DNA from: Thermosipho melanesiensis BI429
GTDB taxonomy: Bacteria > Thermotogota > Thermotogae > Thermotogales > Fervidobacteriaceae
NCBI RefSeq assembly: GCF_000016905.1
Contig: NC_009616.1
Coordinates: forward strand, 1 to 64,000
Reading direction: 5' to 3'
DNA length: 64,000 nt
The translations under genes were made by a program, and so were the position numbers. A model generated the notes under the pieces. The model had not been told where the DNA came from. It saw only the letters and a list, made by a program, of their open reading frames with translations, and did no database searches. How positions within the stretch are numbered: the first letter of the stretch is position 1; every line of letters begins with the position of its first letter. This document shows, in pieces, positions 6,024-39,153 of the stretch.

Positions 6024-6805
6024 CTATAAATCTAAGTTCTCCAAAACCTTTTTCGAAAAAATATTTAAAGAAACAACTATAACTACATTGCCAAAAATCA
6101 CCTTAAAAAACAAATCACTTTCAATAAAACCACTACATATCAATTTTTCAAATTTTCTTTCATACAGAAAAAAAGTAAAAATTCTCCCAAGGAAGTAAAA
6201 GAAAGATATACAAGTAAAACAAAAACTATAATAGATATCAAATAGGATTTTACCAGGTTGTGAAACTTTAAAGAAATAAATTTACTAATATTCCTAACTA
6301 TCAGCGTTCCAAAGAAAATGGAAATAAATATATACAAAACAAATAGAACATCCATGTTTAAACCCATTAATTCTCTATCTTTCACATTTAAAAACCAACC
6401 AACATATAAAACAAATAAATTAACCAACATCACACATAAAAGCAAAAAGAATTCCGAAAAAAATCTTCCGTTAAGGTATTTACTTCTGCTTTTACCATAA
6501 AATATTACTGTATGAATTCGGTTATATTTAACATCATAAGTAATATCCCCTATCGCTATACCATACAACGGATATAAAAACATTCCAAATGAAACCATAT
6601 ACAAATACCAAACATGTGTGAAAAATTCCATACGCAAATTAACATATCTTGCATTTTCAAGATCCTCACCATGATAAAGCCAAAAATCTGGCATGTTCTT
6701 TAAAGACCAGGGGATAAAGACTGAAGATAAAATAATTAATCCAATCATTATTAACGTTTCGCGCCTTTTTAGCAAATTGTAAAACTCAATTATAAAAACC
6801 CTCAT
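6024..6805 (-). pseudogene. ABC-2-type membrane permease, probable C-terminal frameshift
   Basis: The ATG at 6805 lies two bases after the stop of the upstream ATPase gene, suggesting coupling. An intact 221-codon reading frame runs to 6140 and encodes about five hydrophobic helices. Beyond it, a second frame continues with a further hydrophobic helix (VIFGNVVIVVSLNIFF) and ends in LENLDL at a TAG at 6024-6026. Adding one base to the run of five A at 6177-6181 (plus strand) would join the two parts into about 260 residues, the same size as the neighbouring permease. The truncated product may still fold, so loss of function is inferred rather than certain. Confidence 0.6.
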
Positions 6806-6806
6806 A

Positions 6807-8114
6807 TCATTTACCCCTTTTAAATTTCAAAATAATTTTATTCGTATAATAAGTAACTAAAATAATCCATAATGAGACCAAAATAATACCTAAAAAATTA
6901 CTTATATTTCCTTCAAAAGAAACTGTTATTCTGAAATTTTCACTATCCTCAACAAATTTTTCAAATTTGTCAATAACATTCATCTTTTTAGATACCAACC
7001 CATTAATCAAAAAAGTGGTTATTCCAAATATTAAATTTATCAAGTATTGTTTTCTCTTTATCGTTAAAGCACTAATAACTATTGCACATGTTGGTAATAA
7101 CAAAAAATACACTAATAAAATTATCATATTCATCGAATTAATTTCTTTAATTTTTAACAAATACAAAAAAAAGAAAAAAACAGATAAGGCATAAACGAAA
7201 AAAGATTTTATATATCTACTCATATCCCCCCGCCTTTCAAATAATTTTGATAATTTGAATGATTCCACTTCTATATCCAAAATCTTATAACCATTTTTAC
7301 AAATATAACTAACAATTGAATTGAGATACTCCTTATTTTTAACAAAAACAAAACTTTTATCATTTTTAAAAATAACCTCTGCATGTTGTTCCAAATAATC
7401 TAAGGATTTTAAACTCACATTTCCTTTTATTTTCAAAATATACTTTTTCTTATTTTTTATATTTTCAAGAGTATCATTAGCTATGATTTTTCCATCATCC
7501 AACATAATAATCCTGTCACATAATTCTTCAACATCTCCTAATAAATGTGTTGAGAATAAAATTGTTTTTCCCTCTTCCTTTGCTATTTTTCGTATTCTTT
7601 TTTTCATCTCTACTGTTCCAATGGGATCAAGTCCAACTAATGGTTCGTCTAAAATCAAAATCTCTGGTTCAACTATAAGTGTTCTTGCTAAACCTAACCG
7701 TTGTTTCATACCAAAGGAATATTCTCTTACCTTTTTATACCTAACTTCAAACAAATTAACAAATTTCAAAATTTCATCTATAAAGCTAGGATTATTTTTA
7801 CCCAGAAGAATAGTAATTATCTTCAAATTTTCATACGCATTTAAATGATCATAAAACGTTGGCCTTAACAAAAAGCCTATTTTTTTGTTCACTTTATCAA
7901 AAGAATCACTTACACTACATCCATTAATATATATTTCACCTTTTTGAAATTTCAACAATCCTAAAATACACTTCATTAAAGTTGTTTTTCCAGCTCCATT
8001 TCTTCCAACAAGACCCACAATTTCTCCCTTTCTTATCTCAAATGATACATCTTCTAAAGCAACCTTTTTATTTTCATATATCTTTGTAAGATTTTTTACC
8101 TTTATAACACTCAT
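6807..8114 (-). CDS. ABC transporter ATPase fused to a small membrane protein
   Basis: Residues 1-290 form a BcrA-like ABC ATPase: Walker A GRNGAGKTT, signature SFGMKQRLG, Walker B ILILDEPLVGLDP and the H-loop in STHLLGDVEE. Residues from about 298 to the end form a separate membrane protein with some four hydrophobic helices. The junction lies at a run of six C (7226-7231, plus strand). With seven bases the ATPase would end a few codons later at a TAG overlapping the ATG of the membrane protein, which would have the G run as its ribosome site. The fusion may therefore be a one-base deletion joining two coupled genes. The start ATG at 8114 has GGAGGG upstream. It belongs with the two following permease genes, possibly a bacteriocin or antibiotic immunity/export system. 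Confidence 0.8.
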   Translation of the reverse strand: MSVIKVKNLTKIYENKKVALEDVSFEIRKGEIVGLVGRNGAGKTTLMKCILGLLKFQKGEIYINGCSVSDSFDKVNKKIGFLLRPTFYDHLNAYENLKIITILLGKNNPSFIDEILKFVNLFEVRYKKVREYSFGMKQRLGLARTLIVEPEILILDEPLVGLDPIGTVEMKKRIRKIAKEEGKTILFSTHLLGDVEELCDRIIMLDDGKIIANDTLENIKNKKKYILKIKGNVSLKSLDYLEQHAEVIFKNDKSFVFVKNKEYLNSIVSYICKNGYKILDIEVESFKLSKLFERRGDMSRYIKSFFVYALSVFFFFLYLLKIKEINSMNMIILLVYFLLLPTCAIVISALTIKRKQYLINLIFGITTFLINGLVSKKMNVIDKFEKFVEDSENFRITVSFEGNISNFLGIILVSLWIILVTYYTNKIILKFKRGK

Positions 8115-31856: not shown

Positions 31857-31890
31857 CTCCTTTCAGCCCTGCTGAAAGGAGTTTATTTAA
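31855..31890 (+). terminator. corA terminator
   Basis: AACTCCTTTCAG (31855-31866) pairs with CTGAAAGGAGTT (31872-31883), loop CCCTG, then TTATTT. It overlaps the end of the convergent threonine aldolase gene. Confidence 0.85.
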
Positions 31891-32902
31891 AATAACTCCT
31901 TATTTTATCCACAACATAATCTATATCTTTTTTCTTTATCCAATAATGTGTCACATACCTAAATACTCCATCTTCAGAAGGATTTATTTTTACACCATTG
32001 TCCAACATATATTTTATAAACTCATTCTCATCAAAATTTCTTTTCATCTTAAAAAATACCATATTAATTTCTACTTTTTCTACTATCTCAATAAAATCAA
32101 ATTTTTTTAACCTTTCAGCTAAATATTTTGCATTATCATGATCCTCATTAAGCTTAAACCTCATCTTTTCAAGAGCTATAATACCCGCTGCGGCTAATAT
32201 ACCTACCTGTCTCATACCCCCACCCATTATTTTTCTCTTTCTTCTTGCTTCTTTTATAAAATCTTTGCTTCCAACTAGCAAAGAACCAACTGGTGCATAC
32301 AATCCTTTTGAAAGGCAGATATTAATTGAATCAGCATACTTTGCAATTTCATTTGGTTCAACATTTAAGTAAGTAGCTGCGTTAAAAAGCCTTGCACCAT
32401 CCAAATGTATAGGAATGTTATATTTATCCACAATTTTTTTAATTTAGTCAAAATTTTCTAAAGAAATAACTCTTCCACTTGAATGGGCATTTTCCAAACA
32501 GATTAGACCTGTTTTCGGAAAATGTATATCTTCTACTTTCCTTATCTTATTTTCAACAATTTCACGGACAAGTGCTCCATCTCTCGTTTCAACTGTTCTT
32601 AACTGTACACCAGCATTTACCGCTGCGGCTCCTGCTTCATGTTGAACTATATGATAGTCATCACCAATAATTACTTCATCTCCCCTTTGACAATGGGTAA
32701 ACAAAGCAAGTTGATTTGCAAAAGTTCCGCTCGGAACAAAAAGTGCATCTTCTTTTCCCAAAATTTCTGCAGCTAGTCTTTCAAGTTTATTTGCTGTGGG
32801 ATCATTGCCATAAACATCATCTCCAACTTCTGCTTCAGCCATTGTCTTTCTCATCTCTTTCGTAGGTTTTGTAACTGTATCACTTCTTAAATCAATATAC
32901 AT
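31883..32902 (-). pseudogene. ltaE: L-threonine aldolase interrupted by an in-frame TAA
   Basis: The frame encodes a PLP-dependent low-specificity threonine aldolase (threonine to glycine and acetaldehyde). The start ATG at 32902 has GGAGGTG upstream. The first 153 residues end in ISLENFD, then TAA at 32444-32446, and the same frame goes on with IKKIVDKYNIPIHLDGARLFNAA and the PLP-lysine region SICLSKGLYAPVGS. No frameshift is present: one codon (most likely GAA or CAA) reads TAA. Everything else is intact, so the change is recent, is a sequencing error, or is read through. Confidence 0.88.
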
Positions 32903-32920
32903 TAATACACCTCCATACAA

Positions 32921-32948
32921 AAAAAGCCGAGGACACCCTCGGCTTTTT
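32921..32948 (-). terminator. Bidirectional-looking terminator after the LPP20-like gene
   Basis: GCCGAGG (32926-32932) pairs with CCTCGGC (32937-32943), flanked by A and T runs on both sides. On the minus strand it ends the 33636-32947 transcript before ltaE. Confidence 0.88.
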
Positions 32949-33636
32949 ATTGTTCTTCTTCAAATGGTGTCCCTTTCGAAGCTTCTTCAAGTACCGAATT
33001 TAAAGCTTTAAAGAAATCCACTCCCTGCTTTCCAAGTTTTCCAACTGTCTCACTTACAAGTGCTTGAGATTCAAGTATTGAAAGAAGGTTAGTTGGATCG
33101 TAGAAATAAAGCACATGCAACTCAACTACATTTCCCTTTCTAACTTCCCAACTTGCGTATTTTAAAGCACCACTTACTATCGCATTGGCCATAACTTTTG
33201 TAATACCTTTGTATGCACTTACAGCTGCTTCAACTAATTGTTGATTTGCTTCTTCATTTGTATTGTTTGTTTGAACACTTTGTAATTGGCCTTCAACTAC
33301 TTTTCTAAAAGTTTCTACCTTTGCATTTAAAAACTCTGCTATCTTACCCAATGCTTGCGTCCTTGCCGCATTCTCCGCTATGGTCATATTAACTCCGCCA
33401 CCAACATTTACACCTTCAAATACAAATAACCTTCCTTCACGTGCAAGTTGAGCAACTTTTGCTTCTTGAGAGTAGTTAATCTGCACATTTTGCGCTTCTT
33501 TAGGCAACTTCCAAATCCTAATACCTTGTGCCTCAATATACCTATCTTTTGGCAATAAAAAGAAAATTGCCCCAACAACAAGCGCTGCTGCTAATACCCC
33601 AATACCTATCCACATTAACATGTTGTTTTCACTCAT
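32947..33636 (-). CDS. Membrane-anchored LPP20-like protein of unknown function
   Basis: A 229-residue protein with one N-terminal hydrophobic helix (about 8-28, [19 protein letters not shown]) and the rest probably outside the cytoplasm. The central part ([20 protein letters not shown] and after) resembles the LPP20/flagellar-assembly-like domain in which conserved alanines alternate in a long helix. There is no lipobox cysteine. The C-terminal 30 residues are acidic. GGAGGTGG precedes the ATG, and the gene has its own promoter and terminator. Function is unknown. Confidence 0.7.
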
Positions 33637-33657: not shown

Positions 33658-33685
33658 ATTATAACATTTTTTTATTAATCCACAA
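33658..33685 (-). promoter_or_regulatory. Promoter of the LPP20-like gene
   Basis: Minus strand: TTGTGG (33685-33680), 16-base spacer, extended -10 TGTTATAAT (33666-33658). It lies at the end of the upstream radical SAM gene. Confidence 0.6.
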
Positions 33686-34613
33686 AATCATATCCATATT
33701 CTAATTGCTCTTTTTCCATTAAATGTTTTTGTACATATTGACCACAATTGCTCCCTATTTTGTTCTCTTCTAATTCACCAATACTTATTATTACATCATA
33801 CCCTGCTTCCATTAATTTTTCAACAAAATACTGGTGATTCACTGGTATAAACGTCTTTAAATCTATATCAGATTCTAAATTATTTTTCATAGCTGAATAT
33901 GTGGGATTTATAGGTGTAATTTTAATCAAGAATTTTTCTTTATCAAAATATTTTATTATAACATCTGGATCCGCTATATTTTGCTTCGCAAGAGCAAAAT
34001 TTAATGTAACCTTTCTATCACCACTTTTTACAAATTTTTCACCATATTTTGCTATATCTTCAAAACTCCATTTTTTAATCGGTATAATTCTATTTCTTTG
34101 ATCTTTATCTGTAGCATGTATTGAAAATTGTAGTTGAAAACGTCCTAAATACATCTTATCTTTGATTTCCAGCAACCTTTCGAAAAAATCATCTGTTCCA
34201 ATTGGTGCTACCGTAGACACAGACGGCATCAAACCTGGAGCATCAATCTCCTTGGGTAATCTCTCTAAAACATCTAAAACTGCTTCGTTTAAAGCTGGTT
34301 CTCCCATTCTTGCAAATTGTATTTTAAATTTTTCCACCGGCACACGTTTATTAATAAATCTTGATTCAACAAGAAAAAGTATTTGCTCCATAATCTCATC
34401 ACTTTGTAATTTCCCTTTATAGAATCCTCCTGCATCACACATTAAACAACCCACAGGACATCCATTTAAAGTAGAAACAATCAATACCCATTTCTTTTCC
34501 CTTGGTATAGGAGGCTGAATTGATTCTACAAACTCAACTAAATTTCCTCTTGAAGTCTTTCCAAGATATACATATGCAACTTCTTCTTTGCCTACTTTTT
34601 TTAATATTTCCAA
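33675..34613 (-). CDS. RlmN/Cfr-like radical SAM protein lacking the N-terminal domain
   Basis: A 312-residue radical SAM enzyme. The cluster motif is CPVGCLMC (C52, C56, C59). RlmN-like landmarks follow: FARMGEPALNEAVLD (GEP motif), SIHATDKDQRNRIIPI, and a cysteine in NCGQYV (C290) at the place of the methyl-carrying or thiyl Cys of RlmN. It is shorter than RlmN and lacks the N-terminal helix-hairpin-like accessory domain, so rRNA is not the sure substrate. The gene overlaps the upstream flavoprotein gene by 13 bases and ends an operon that begins at recG. Methylation of an RNA or another molecule is inferred only. Confidence 0.8.
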   Translation of the reverse strand: MEILKKVGKEEVAYVYLGKTSRGNLVEFVESIQPPIPREKKWVLIVSTLNGCPVGCLMCDAGGFYKGKLQSDEIMEQILFLVESRFINKRVPVEKFKIQFARMGEPALNEAVLDVLERLPKEIDAPGLMPSVSTVAPIGTDDFFERLLEIKDKMYLGRFQLQFSIHATDKDQRNRIIPIKKWSFEDIAKYGEKFVKSGDRKVTLNFALAKQNIADPDVIIKYFDKEKFLIKITPINPTYSAMKNNLESDIDLKTFIPVNHQYFVEKLMEAGYDVIISIGELEENKIGSNCGQYVQKHLMEKEQLEYGYDFVD

Positions 34614-35395
34614 TCTTCTCCCCTCCTTAAAATCTTCATCGCAATCTTTATACCATCACTTACCGCTATGGAAGCCTGTCTAAAATCAGGATGTGCCACA
34701 TCTCCTATCAAATAAACATCTGATGTTTTTACAAATGACAAATCAATTTTTCTACCAATTGCCAAAAGCAACTTATCAAATTTGTAAGTATTCACTGCCG
34801 TATGAATCTCAACATAATTTTTTTTATATTCTACATCCTTTATCTCTTCACCTAAATGCATATCTATTCCCAATTTTTTTGCTGTTTCAAACAATATTGG
34901 AACTGCCTTCACTTTCACATTTCTAGAAAAAATTGAAACTTTTTTCCCCTCCAACTTTGCTTTTATTGCACCATCAAATGCAACATCTCCAGCACCGTAT
35001 ATTGCAAGTGAATTAAATTCAAAAAGGTCAGTATATTCGTAGGCCACTCTTTCGTTTTCAAACCCCACTATTCTATTTGGAACAGTACCACTTGCTACAA
35101 TAATTTCATCAAAAAAATATCTTCCATTTCTTGTAACAATTTCATTTTTATTAACTGTTGTTACTTCATCAAAGACAACTTTCACATCATAAATTTTCAA
35201 ATATGAGTTCATAATCTTTACTATATCTTCTCCGGAAGTAGGTTTAAAAAGAGGAATATTTTCAACTCTCCACGCATTTCTCAATAATCCACCCAATGAT
35301 TTTTTTTCAAAAACTGTACAATCAATACCATACCGCTTTAAGAAAATTGCCGCGGAAATACCAGCAGGCCCTCCACCAACTATTCCAACTCGCAT
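34601..35395 (-). CDS. Small FAD-dependent oxidoreductase, thioredoxin-reductase-like without CxxC
   Basis: A 264-residue flavoprotein. An FAD site GIVGGGPAGISAAIFL is at the N-terminus, a second Rossmann motif IYGAGDVAFDGAIKA (about 131-145) is for NAD(P)H, and DVYLIGDVAHPD near the end is the usual second FAD contact. The redox-active CxxC of thioredoxin reductases is missing, so it should pass electrons to a partner rather than to a disulfide. It overlaps both neighbours by about 15 bases, and it may supply electrons to the adjacent radical SAM enzymes. Family is clear; role is inferred. Confidence 0.82.
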   Translation of the reverse strand: MRVGIVGGGPAGISAAIFLKRYGIDCTVFEKKSLGGLLRNAWRVENIPLFKPTSGEDIVKIMNSYLKIYDVKVVFDEVTTVNKNEIVTRNGRYFFDEIIVASGTVPNRIVGFENERVAYEYTDLFEFNSLAIYGAGDVAFDGAIKAKLEGKKVSIFSRNVKVKAVPILFETAKKLGIDMHLGEEIKDVEYKKNYVEIHTAVNTYKFDKLLLAIGRKIDLSFVKTSDVYLIGDVAHPDFRQASIAVSDGIKIAMKILRRGEDWKY

Positions 35396-35934
35396 AAAAC
35401 TTCCTCCGTTGAAGAAATAACAGCAAATCCATGAGCTAGTGATTTCAAAGATAAAAAATGATAAAATTCATCTTTGTCCCATAATGCATCTTCAACCATA
35501 ACAATATTATATCCTCTTACAAACCCACTCCTTGCGGTGGTTTCACAACATAGATGTGTCATAACTCCCGTAATTACTAAATCCTTAACAGATTTTTTTT
35601 CTAGGATTTCTTCAAGTTCTGTGTTGTAAAATGCATCATATGTATTTTTTTTGATAACATATGATGCCTTAAAATAAGGTTCTACATCCTTTACAATATT
35701 TCCCCACCACTTTTTCATTTTATCTGTTCCACCAACATGTAGTGTAGATATTACTGGATAACCTTTTTCTTCAAACTGTTTTATTAATTTCTCAATATTT
35801 CCAAAAATATTTTCAATTCCTCTCAAATATGCCAAACTTTTTTTATCAAAAAAGTAACTCTGTACATCGATTATTAAAAGAGCAGGGTTCTTTATCACAA
35901 GTGGATGCTTTTCCCTTTCTTTGAAAAACCTCAC
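35380..35934 (-). CDS. Cysteine hydrolase, isochorismatase family
   Basis: A 184-residue alpha/beta hydrolase of the isochorismatase/nicotinamidase group. The catalytic triad is visible: Asp in LLIIDVQ (about 23), a lysine near KKWWGN or KASYVIKKN, and Cys in MTHLCCETTARSGF (about 130) preceded by the cis-peptide GVMTH. Members hydrolyse amides or carbamoyl groups; the substrate here is not evident. It overlaps both flanking genes, so it belongs to the operon with two radical SAM proteins and a flavoprotein. Confidence 0.85.
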   Translation of the reverse strand: MRFFKEREKHPLVIKNPALLIIDVQSYFFDKKSLAYLRGIENIFGNIEKLIKQFEEKGYPVISTLHVGGTDKMKKWWGNIVKDVEPYFKASYVIKKNTYDAFYNTELEEILEKKSVKDLVITGVMTHLCCETTARSGFVRGYNIVMVEDALWDKDEFYHFLSLKSLAHGFAVISSTEEVLCELE

Positions 35935-36821
35935 TTCAAAATCCCCCTTGCAATCTCCTCAAGTTCTCTACTGTATTCAAAAAAGTTATATGGCATACTT
36001 CCAGGTTTTTCATTGTAGTATGGTCTTGTACAATAAGTACAACCTGACGTTAAAAAGGCGCGGCCTAGTCCTTCAATATATCCAAAATCTATCTCTTCCA
36101 AATTTTCGTTTTTAAAAACAAACACATCCCTAGAAACATGTTTTTCAAAAATTAGATACCTTGCAAGTTGAATTTTCCTATATCTTTCACTACTTGGAGA
36201 TTTTCGATGTTCAAATTTCGTACCTTTTATCGGTGTAAATGAAAACAACGCTACATTAACGTTTAAATCTTTCATTTCATAAAAAAAGTCCACGAGTTCT
36301 TTATCACTTTCTCCCATACCAACTATCACATGTGTGGTAATCTTTCCTTTATATTTTTTTGCCGCATCACTAATTAATTTCTTTGTTATTTTCAAACTTC
36401 CTCCCCTAATATTTTTAAAAAGCTCATCATTTACAACATCGACTGATAAACCTATAGTATCTACACCATATGAAAAATACTCATCAATTTCATCTAAATC
36501 TAAAGCCCTAACTGATACAGAAATTCTTTTACCCTTTAATTTTCCCAAAAGCAACCTTAAATCTTCTCTATATCCTTTATAACTTACAACTTGAAGACAA
36601 ATCCTCTTTACATTCAACTTGCTTAAATCTTCAATTGATACTTCTTTCCATATAACCCTTGATAAATATTTATTATCAACTTTTGCATTTCTTGCATGGG
36701 AACAAAAGGAACAATCAAAAACACATTTTCCATCAACCATAAAATATGCTGTATCCATCCTTACACTTTTCCTTACATATCCCAAAAGTGCCAACGTCCC
36801 ATATGATGCCCTCAATATCAT
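35931..36821 (-). CDS. Biotin-synthase-related radical SAM protein
   Basis: A 296-residue radical SAM protein with CVFDCSFC (C33, C37, C40) as the cluster motif and a second cysteine pair CTYC close to the C-terminus, followed by TRPYYNEKPGSMPYNF. The sequence resembles proteins annotated as biotin-synthase-related (COG2516-like) whose reaction is unknown. The C-terminal Cys pair could hold an auxiliary Fe-S cluster or sacrificial sulfur. The ATG at 36821 is preferred because GAGGTG lies six bases upstream; a GTG at 36830 is part of that site. It follows recG directly and overlaps the hydrolase gene by four bases. Confidence 0.8.
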   Translation of the reverse strand: MILRASYGTLALLGYVRKSVRMDTAYFMVDGKCVFDCSFCSHARNAKVDNKYLSRVIWKEVSIEDLSKLNVKRICLQVVSYKGYREDLRLLLGKLKGKRISVSVRALDLDEIDEYFSYGVDTIGLSVDVVNDELFKNIRGGSLKITKKLISDAAKKYKGKITTHVIVGMGESDKELVDFFYEMKDLNVNVALFSFTPIKGTKFEHRKSPSSERYRKIQLARYLIFEKHVSRDVFVFKNENLEEIDFGYIEGLGRAFLTSGCTYCTRPYYNEKPGSMPYNFFEYSRELEEIARGILK

Positions 36822-36831
36822 ACGTTTCACC

Positions 36832-39153
36832 TCAACCTACATCCAAAAATTCTAATCTTTCTTTGTAAATATCTTTTACATATTCTATTAAAGTTTTAAA
36901 TTTCTCTATGTTATTCACTATATACTTGGCATCTTCCCGAGCCATTAAGATAATATCTATATCGTTAATAATATCAGCTACTTTAAATTCTGGCAATCCG
37001 TGTTGTTTTACACCTAAAAATTCCCCAGGCCCTCTTAACTTTAAATCATATTCTGAAATTTTGAAACCATCATTCGTTGAAGCAAAGAAATTCAATCTTT
37101 CAAGGGTTTCCCTTGAAACATTTCCAACAGTTAAATAGCAATATGACTGCTTATTTCCTCTCCCAACTCTTCCTCTTAACTGATGCAATTGAGCTAGACC
37201 AAATCTTTCCGCGTTTTCAATAACTATTACAGTTGCTTGGGGCACATCTATCCCCACCTCTATTACACTTGTTGAAATCAATATTTTGATTTCTCCTCGC
37301 GAAAATTTGTACATTATCTCATCTTTTTCAAAATCACTCATCCTACCGTGAATTAAAGCTGTTGAAATATCTTTAAAATATTCTTCTCTAAGCTTTTCAT
37401 GCATAGAAACGGCTGATTTCACAGAAAGTTTTTCAGAATCATCTATCAATGGATAAACAATATAAGCCTGCCCGCCATTTTCAACTTCACTTATTATAAA
37501 TTTATATACTTCATCTATTTTGGTTTGATGAACAACAAAAGTTTTTATAGGTTTTCTTCCTTTAGGCATTTCATCTATTATTGAAACATCAAGATCTCCA
37601 TAAACAGAAAGTGAAAGAGTTCTTGGTATAGGAGTAGCGGTCATCACTAACGTATCTACTAATTTTCCTTTTGCAATAAGCTCTTTTCTTTGTCTTACGC
37701 CAAATCTATGTTGCTCATCAATTACAACCAATCCCAAATTTTTAAAATGCACATCTTCCTGTATTAAAGCATGAGTTCCAACAACCACATCTAAATCACC
37801 ATTTTTAAGCATTTGTTTTATCCTATTTTTCTCAGTTGTTGAAGTCGCCCCTAAAAGCAATGCTACTCTAATCCCAAATCTCGAAAGATGTTCAAACATT
37901 TTTTTAAAATTTTGAATAGCCAAAATTGAAGTTGGAACCATTACTGCAGATTGAAATCCTGCTTCATAATTATCCAAAATAGCAAGTTCAGAAACTATTG
38001 TTTTTCCTGAACCCACATCTCCTTGTAATAATCTATTCATAGGTTTATCTGATTTTAGATCTTTTTTGATCTCTTCATATGCATTTAACTGAGCATTAGT
38101 AAGCTTAAAAGGTAACTGTTTTAATAACTCAGATGATAACTTCCCTTCAAAATTCTTTGAGATACCACCTATATTTTCATTTTCCTTTTTTGAAAGAAAA
38201 AACGCAAGTTGTAAATATAATATTTCTTCATATGCTAGTCTAAAACGTGACATTTTTTGATGGTACATACTTAAAGGAAAATGCATTCCCGTATATGCTT
38301 GGTAAACATCTAAAAGCCTTCTTTTTCCTTTTAGCTCATCTGGAAGGTAATCTTTAAAATTGTAAATATTATACAAGTTTTCTTTGATTATTCTTCTAAT
38401 TACATTTTGCTTTATACCTTCTGTTAAAGAATAAACCGGCATAATCTCTCGTGAAGAATTTCCAATAACTTCTATTTCCGGATTATGGATTTCCAAAGTA
38501 CCATAGAATCCTTTTTTCACCAATCCAAATACATACACTTTCTTTCTCATCAAAGTCTTTAAAACATTTCCTATGTAATCTTGATTAAACCACTTTAAAA
38601 GAATTTGATACATTCCATCTGAAAGCACTGCACTCACAATCGAAAGTCCACTTTTTTTTATCTTTTCAACCGCGGACAAGACGCCACTAGTAACTACTTT
38701 TTCATCTTCTTTGAGTATAGGTAGAGGCATAACTTTTCTTCTATCTTCATAATCTCTTGGAAAATAATTTAATAAATCTTCAACCGTTTTAACCCCCAAT
38801 TTCATCAATTTTTCTGCTCTTTTTGGCCCTACTCCTTTTAAATACTTAACGGATAAATCAAGCTCTTTTAAATTTCCCTGCTTTTCTGCTTTGTAAACTA
38901 AATACATATCTCTAAACCTTTTAACCATTCCTGGAATAAACTTCATACGTTTTTCTATTCTTTCTCTATTCAAATGCTTCATTTTCACTATATAATCATA
39001 AAACTCCTGAAGTCTTTTAGAAACTTCAGGAATATTCTTTAAAGGATCATCTATTTTTTCAAAATTCTCCTCAAAAAATTCTATTAATTCAAAGGAATCT
39101 TTTATTCTTTCTACCTTCTCTAAAAAATCTTCTATTAAAAGTGGTATGTACAA
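36832..39153 (-). CDS. recG: ATP-dependent DNA helicase RecG
   Basis: A 773-residue branch-migration helicase that remodels stalled forks. The N-terminal region (1-100) is an additional helical domain typical of Thermotoga-type RecG. It is followed by the wedge/OB domain and the helicase core: Walker A LLQGDVGSGKT (about 378-388), DEQH box, TATPIPRTLS, and the C-terminal QLHQLRGRVGRG motif. The start is TTG with GGAG upstream. It follows an ABC ATPase gene after three bases and precedes the radical SAM operon, probably on one transcript. Confidence 0.96.
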   Translation of the reverse strand: MYIPLLIEDFLEKVERIKDSFELIEFFEENFEKIDDPLKNIPEVSKRLQEFYDYIVKMKHLNRERIEKRMKFIPGMVKRFRDMYLVYKAEKQGNLKELDLSVKYLKGVGPKRAEKLMKLGVKTVEDLLNYFPRDYEDRRKVMPLPILKEDEKVVTSGVLSAVEKIKKSGLSIVSAVLSDGMYQILLKWFNQDYIGNVLKTLMRKKVYVFGLVKKGFYGTLEIHNPEIEVIGNSSREIMPVYSLTEGIKQNVIRRIIKENLYNIYNFKDYLPDELKGKRRLLDVYQAYTGMHFPLSMYHQKMSRFRLAYEEILYLQLAFFLSKKENENIGGISKNFEGKLSSELLKQLPFKLTNAQLNAYEEIKKDLKSDKPMNRLLQGDVGSGKTIVSELAILDNYEAGFQSAVMVPTSILAIQNFKKMFEHLSRFGIRVALLLGATSTTEKNRIKQMLKNGDLDVVVGTHALIQEDVHFKNLGLVVIDEQHRFGVRQRKELIAKGKLVDTLVMTATPIPRTLSLSVYGDLDVSIIDEMPKGRKPIKTFVVHQTKIDEVYKFIISEVENGGQAYIVYPLIDDSEKLSVKSAVSMHEKLREEYFKDISTALIHGRMSDFEKDEIMYKFSRGEIKILISTSVIEVGIDVPQATVIVIENAERFGLAQLHQLRGRVGRGNKQSYCYLTVGNVSRETLERLNFFASTNDGFKISEYDLKLRGPGEFLGVKQHGLPEFKVADIINDIDIILMAREDAKYIVNNIEKFKTLIEYVKDIYKERLEFLDVG

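Follow-up and report, generated by a model that had tools for sequence, protein, structure and literature searches.

The first 64,000 nucleotides of contig NC_009616.1 of Thermosipho melanesiensis BI429 (the window, which is the start of a single contig of 1,915,238 bases) contain a minus-strand cluster of four overlapping genes with an interesting and an ordinary part. The interesting part is an uncharacterised three-gene module that occurs in bacteria and archaea and is centred on RSX, a short radical S-adenosylmethionine (SAM) enzyme resembling RlmN; the other two genes encode a cysteine hydrolase (ICH) and a flavoprotein (FAD). The ordinary part is the gene assigned to lipS2. A check of the open reading frames (ORFs) bore out the four overlapping genes at positions 33675-36821 reported in the initial annotation, with overlaps of 13 (RSX/FAD), 16 (FAD/ICH) and 4 bases (ICH/lipS2):

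33675-34613, minus strand: RSX, 312 amino acids (aa), short RlmN-like radical SAM enzyme, third gene of the module
34601-35395, minus strand: FAD, 264 aa, FAD/NAD(P)H flavoprotein similar to thioredoxin reductase (TrxR), lacking the redox CxxC, second gene of the module
35380-35934, minus strand: ICH, 184 aa, isochorismatase-fold cysteine hydrolase (amidase-like), first gene of the module
35931-36821, minus strand: lipS2, 296 aa from ATG, radical SAM lipoyl synthase subunit; an alternative GTG start is located at 36830

Gene overlaps of such size are common in compact thermophile genomes. The overlaps alone are no proof of one pathway; better evidence comes from gene order, whose conservation across phyla supports only ICH-FAD-RSX, not lipS2, as a unit. 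The four genes had been annotated as one complete pathway without a known match. For the four together this was rejected, lipS2 being known and LipS2 and the module lying apart in most genomes; for ICH-FAD-RSX, whose genes stay together with order and overlap kept across many phyla, the absence of a known match stood. Our preferred explanation is that lipS2 and ICH-FAD-RSX are two unrelated units sharing one transcript. We hold it with moderate confidence, a grading that applies to the explanation as a whole, i.e. the lipoate unit, the module and the mechanism proposed for it.

Conservation and distribution of the ICH-FAD-RSX module

A scan of one genome per species (84,980 species) yielded 509 places encoding relatives of RSX, of which some of the weaker may be RlmN; the cross-phylum locus counts given here refer to the best 80 of these 509 places. 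They belong to about 20 bacterial and archaeal phyla, and the groups represented include Chloroflexota, Zixiibacteriota, Eiseniibacteriota, Cloacimonadota, Latescibacterota, Bipolaricaulota, Thermoplasmatota, Thermococcus, Methanogenium and Heimdallarchaeota, among others. The gene order is fixed as ICH, FAD, RSX. All three genes are present in 62 of the 80 loci, directly adjacent except in L143 and L210, while 12 loci carry FAD-RSX without ICH and six carry RSX alone, some of them at contig ends. Of 94 FAD-RSX pairs examined, 46 overlap by precisely 4 bp, and in 82 the junction lies within 20 bp. Another 20 Thermotogota loci, selected by RSX and mostly far from LipS2, were read as well: FAD adjoins RSX in all 20, and a close ICH stands beside the pair in 16. 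Three Thermotoga-like (g7) loci (L122, at 6289-6870, L123 and L124) have a gene with a GloB-like metallo-beta-lactamase fold between FAD and RSX. Since order and overlap are conserved across phyla, we are highly confident that ICH-FAD-RSX is one unit, a self-contained and patchily spread enzyme system; the module and its conservation are directly supported by these loci. A search for the module in the literature library consulted returned no paper.

Within the Thermotogota, RSX is intact in 43 of the 103 genomes searched. Two more contain copies broken by stops or split (G021:C82 and G028:C1) while their close relatives retain intact ones, and therefore the module can be lost. RSX was a single-copy gene in 41 of 41 genomes. 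Its occurrence is sporadic, e.g. in four of 301 Chloroflexota. In a quick tree, RSX separated fully from RlmN and followed the phyla poorly, which fits transfer of the module between lineages. Plasmids searched for RSX or LipS clusters gave only RlmN/Cfr-type and unrelated matches. In two Latescibacterota loci (L164 and L217), neither FAD nor ICH is in view, and the genes after RSX are those of a UPF0173-type metal-dependent hydrolase and of a large ASKHA activase-like protein.

RSX, an RlmN-like protein without the resolving cysteine

RSX scored 61.7 bits against the RlmN family model (cut-off 290), with the match beginning at model position 89, and 48-52 bits against the Cfr models (cut-offs 468-550). 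Its score with Pfam Radical_SAM was 27.1 bits, just under the cut-off of 29.5, and none of the curated families of Pfam and NCBIfam covers it. The AlphaFold model had a predicted local distance difference test (pLDDT) score of 88.2; its best PDB matches by Foldseek were RlmN and Cfr (template modelling score 0.6-0.7, about 19% identity). Two other identities were considered and dropped. RSX is not LipS1, which is encoded elsewhere, since it matches RlmN instead; nor is it the RlmN of this genome, as a true RlmN is likewise encoded elsewhere and scores 383 bits.

The fold is shown by this model and its matches, the residue assignments by an alignment of 107 RSX and 12 RlmN sequences. The CxxxCxxC cysteines C52/C56/C59 are present in all 107 RSX sequences, as are E27 and C290, which align with E105 and C355 of RlmN. 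In RlmN, C355 loses its proton to E105 before it accepts the methyl group (PMC9692996). C290 is the C-terminal cysteine that the initial annotation had pointed out in this protein. RSX thus shares with RlmN and Cfr the fold, the CxxxCxxC and GEP motifs, the methyl-carrier cysteine in a CGQ loop and the deprotonating glutamate. It differs from both in three respects. First, the resolving cysteine of RlmN, C118 (present in 12 of 12 RlmN), is replaced at RSX residue 45 by Ile (77 sequences), Met (15) or Leu (14) and is Cys in none of the 107; this loss had been overlooked in the initial annotation. Second, residue 8 of RSX is the counterpart of residue 72 in the RlmN of the genome, so that RSX starts near RlmN residue 65 and the N-terminal accessory RNA-binding domain is absent, as had been noticed before. 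Third, the invariant pocket residues are others: R102, N205, K231, D60-A61-G62 and W182 do not vary in RSX, and G62 is the only one of them that RlmN shares. RSX is also nearly always accompanied by the flavoprotein and mostly by the hydrolase, unlike RlmN and Cfr.

Class A enzymes are defined by two conserved cysteines, and C118 is indispensable to resolve the crosslink (PMC9692996, review). Because the second of these cysteines never occurs in RSX, its sequence places it outside class A, yet it may work partly like a class A enzyme. Both cysteines are regarded as necessary in RlmN and Cfr, the first as carrier of the carbon and the second for its release. A family that keeps the first and never the second, with members across phyla 55-60% identical to the window protein, implies a strong function.

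RSX could nevertheless be an RNA methylase of the RlmN or Cfr kind whose target is rRNA or tRNA and for which another protein stands in for the lost domain. RlmN and Cfr are its best matches in fold and sequence, and the methyl-carrier cysteine is retained together with its glutamate. We consider this unlikely: a separate true RlmN exists in the genome, both the accessory domain and the resolving cysteine, the latter essential in RlmN and Cfr (PMC9692996), are missing, and the proteins constantly encoded with RSX are a hydrolase and a reductase, not RNA-binding proteins.

The flavoprotein and the hydrolase

FAD matched Pfam Pyr_redox_2 with 80 bits. Its AlphaFold model (pLDDT 93.5) found TrxR and TrxR-like ferredoxin-NADP reductases as structural matches, with which it shares two Rossmann domains and the glycine motifs for FAD and NAD(P)H, both of them retained. 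It differs from TrxR in the absence of a CxxC, and its identity to solved structures is about 20%. The lack of the redox CxxC, already recorded in the initial annotation, was confirmed for the window protein and extends to the family, since a CxxC occurs anywhere in only three of 100 homologues. Because the motif is missing, the protein is predicted to be incapable of a TrxR-style disulfide relay. The missing CxxC and the ferredoxin-NADP reductases among the structural matches suggest a role as electron donor: FAD would pass electrons from NAD(P)H to the cluster of RSX, directly or through ferredoxin or flavodoxin. The earlier suggestion of the flavoprotein as electron source is judged reasonable on linkage and fold.

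ICH scored 153 bits against Pfam Isochorismatase (cut-off 27). Among 83 homologues, the catalytic residues K96 and C129 are conserved in all and D23 in 82; W76, W77 and H66 are invariant. The fold and the Asp/Lys/Cys catalytic residues are those of YecD, RutB, biuret hydrolase and isochorismatase. In contrast to these cysteine hydrolases, ICH has its own invariant WW and KxxYDAF motifs and falls below every curated NCBIfam cut-off. Since it keeps this Asp/Lys/Cys set, ICH is probably an active amide hydrolase.

The fold is common to nicotinamidases, and quinolinate synthase is encoded nearby in two loci. It is conceivable from this that the module serves nicotinamide/NAD salvage or damage repair with ICH as nicotinamidase. 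However, family models place ICH nearer to biuret hydrolase, RutB and YecD than to nicotinamidase, although none reaches its cut-off, and the nearby nadA lies on the opposite strand. Such a function is very improbable.

Proposed chemistry of RSX

All chemical steps of RSX, along with the electron route and the class of substrate, we infer from the residues and partners described above. E27 would deprotonate C290, which would receive the methyl group of a first SAM to form S-methylcysteine. The [4Fe-4S] cluster on C52/C56/C59 would cleave a second SAM, and the 5'-deoxyadenosyl radical would convert the methylcysteine to a Cys-S-CH2 radical that adds to the substrate. Because the counterpart of Cys118 in RlmN is always replaced, release would have to proceed by another base or to a different acceptor. 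Loss of the RNA-binding domain makes a small molecule the probable substrate, and ICH would hydrolyse an amide in the precursor or the product. We regard the chances of a methylcysteine-radical mechanism in RSX as evenly balanced.

Several points weigh against this reading of the module. In the absence of C118, C290 could have a role other than that of a methyl carrier. The idea of a small molecule was drawn from a missing domain, and a partner protein could bring RNA or protein to the enzyme. The proposal that FAD donates electrons to RSX draws only on linkage and fold. With ICH absent beside FAD-RSX in 12 of the 80 loci, the hydrolase may be dispensable. Neither clustering of the 80 loci nor reading of their neighbours revealed a constant gene beyond the three, and many forks are weak in the quick tree used to judge the spread.

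The RSX family bears on the extent of S-methylcysteine radical chemistry outside RNA. A bolder proposal, which we put forward tentatively and consider rather doubtful, is that RSX founds a new radical SAM class in which a Cys-S-CH2 radical forms as in RlmN but, with no resolving cysteine, its carbon reaches a small molecule by a new route. If true, this class would deliver, for instance, a methylene bridge or a ring carbon to an undescribed cofactor or metabolite common to bacteria and archaea.

LipS2 and the lipoate assembly set

The protein encoded at 35931-36821, taken for biotin-synthase-related in the initial annotation, scored 341 bits against the NCBIfam model NF053743 for LipS2 (cut-off 270). 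Residues C36/C40/C43, C78, H167, C264 and C267 are invariant in 41 aligned sequences, among them a LipS2 of Thermococcus. The pattern of ligands to the radical SAM and auxiliary clusters is the same as in TK2248, whose two clusters use C39/C43/C46, C85, H178, C276 and C279 (Neti et al.; PMC9585515). From this score and the invariant ligands, which support the identity directly, the gene is almost certainly lipS2, whose product forms the known lipoyl synthase together with LipS1. The second cysteine pair seen earlier at the end of this protein is real; it consists of C264 and C267 and is predicted to form part of the auxiliary [4Fe-4S] cluster. The predicted role of LipS2 is sulfur insertion at C8 of octanoyl-lysine in lipoate assembly.

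LipS1 is encoded at contig positions 1,165,857-1,166,618; its match covers most of the model but, at 199 bits, falls below the curated 230, and it retains a C-terminal CC pair. A protein of the BPL/LplA/LipB family (lipoate-ligase/LipM-like) is encoded near 289 kb of the contig and fits the LipS1/S2-LipM pairing reported for some Thermotogota (PMC10332631). In the assembly envisaged, this protein would supply the octanoylated protein, the lipS2 product would make the 8-mercaptooctanoyl intermediate and LipS1 would add the second sulfur. As LipS1 and the LplA/LipM-like protein are found elsewhere, the lipoate set predicted for the organism is complete without ICH, FAD and RSX; the assignment of LipS2 completes it and removes a false "unknown pathway". 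The set corresponds to LipS1/LipS2 of Thermococcus kodakarensis (TK2109/TK2248) and to the bacterial sLpl(AB)-LipS1/S2 systems. Unlike in known lipoate clusters, the three genes are scattered and lipS2 adjoins an unrelated module. LipS1 and the true rlmN are close neighbours, no more than about 1 kb apart, in several Fervidobacteriaceae (f1 genomes, among them G009, G013, G015, G017 and G018).

Separation of lipS2 from the module

LipS2 occurs in 52 and LipS1 in 53 of 61 Thermotogota genomes. ICH-FAD-RSX adjoin LipS2 in six of 39 other Thermotogota LipS2 loci (G001, G002, G003, G006, G007 and G014), so that the linkage is seen in only seven genomes, that of the window and six relatives. As to INDEPENDENCE from lipoate, five of the 43 module genomes outside the Thermotogota have a match to LipS2, and three of these pass the cut-off.

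The small number of such matches and the absence of the module at most LipS2 loci in Thermotogota argue against a joint function of all four genes in lipoate assembly. Under such a function, FAD would be LipT, the proposed electron donor to LipS1/LipS2, with RSX and ICH as accessory proteins. In bacteria, a gene for LipT, an FAD-binding NAD(P)H oxidoreductase, frequently accompanies lipS1/lipS2 (PMC10332631). By description alone, LipT and FAD are both FAD/NAD(P)H oxidoreductases encoded near radical SAM genes, which in the case of LipT are those of sulfur insertion. In contrast to LipT as described, FAD travels with RSX and not with LipS2, mostly in genomes without LipS2. In addition to the adjacency of LipS2 and module in the window's clade, a Thermoplasmatota contig (L185/L228) carries LipS2-LplA-LplB shortly upstream of the module, and because of this contig we leave a lipoate function of the whole cluster a small share of probability.

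Local association with one-carbon metabolism

Some loci place the module beside genes of one-carbon and corrinoid metabolism. In Anaerolineales it lies within an operon, between RACo/pterin-binding methyltransferase/methylenetetrahydrofolate reductase (MTHFR) with MetV/DUF3786 and two CooC-like ATPases; in other loci it stands behind MttB and B12-binding genes. A function in this metabolism, e.g. in repairing or methylating a cofactor of methyl transfer, would account for these neighbours, but the link is confined to few lineages. RACo was detected in 15 of 43 genomes with RSX and in 15 of 37 Chloroflexota genomes without it, i.e. with no enrichment. It was found in none of the 41 genomes searched of the window's order, 28 of which carry an intact RSX. 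On these counts the corrinoid link of the module is local. The RACo comparison did not support a general corrinoid or one-carbon role, and we give the idea little credence.

Flanking genes

Two further minus-strand genes border the cluster:

36832-39153, minus strand: recG (helicase), from the ORF list, directly upstream of lipS2
32947-33636, minus strand: gene of a small protein of 229 aa with an N-terminal membrane segment, 38 bases past RSX

Since the gap between recG and lipS2 is only 1 to 10 bases, the transcription unit probably starts further upstream, with recG at its head. recG and lipS2 stay linked in relatives without the module at this site (L059 and L085), and recG has no functional link to lipS2 or the module. 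A Pfam search with the 229-aa protein gave no match. Among the Thermotogota loci around LipS2, its gene follows RSX only in the window's genus and in g5, and it is a local neighbour only. The protein is conserved within the genus at 89-92%, above the level of the adjacent genes. Further along the same strand, a threonine-aldolase-like gene (31883-32902, minus) contains a single in-frame TAA at codon 153, which looks like a recent nonsense mutation; the relative L141 has an intact copy of 341 aa adjoining RSX.

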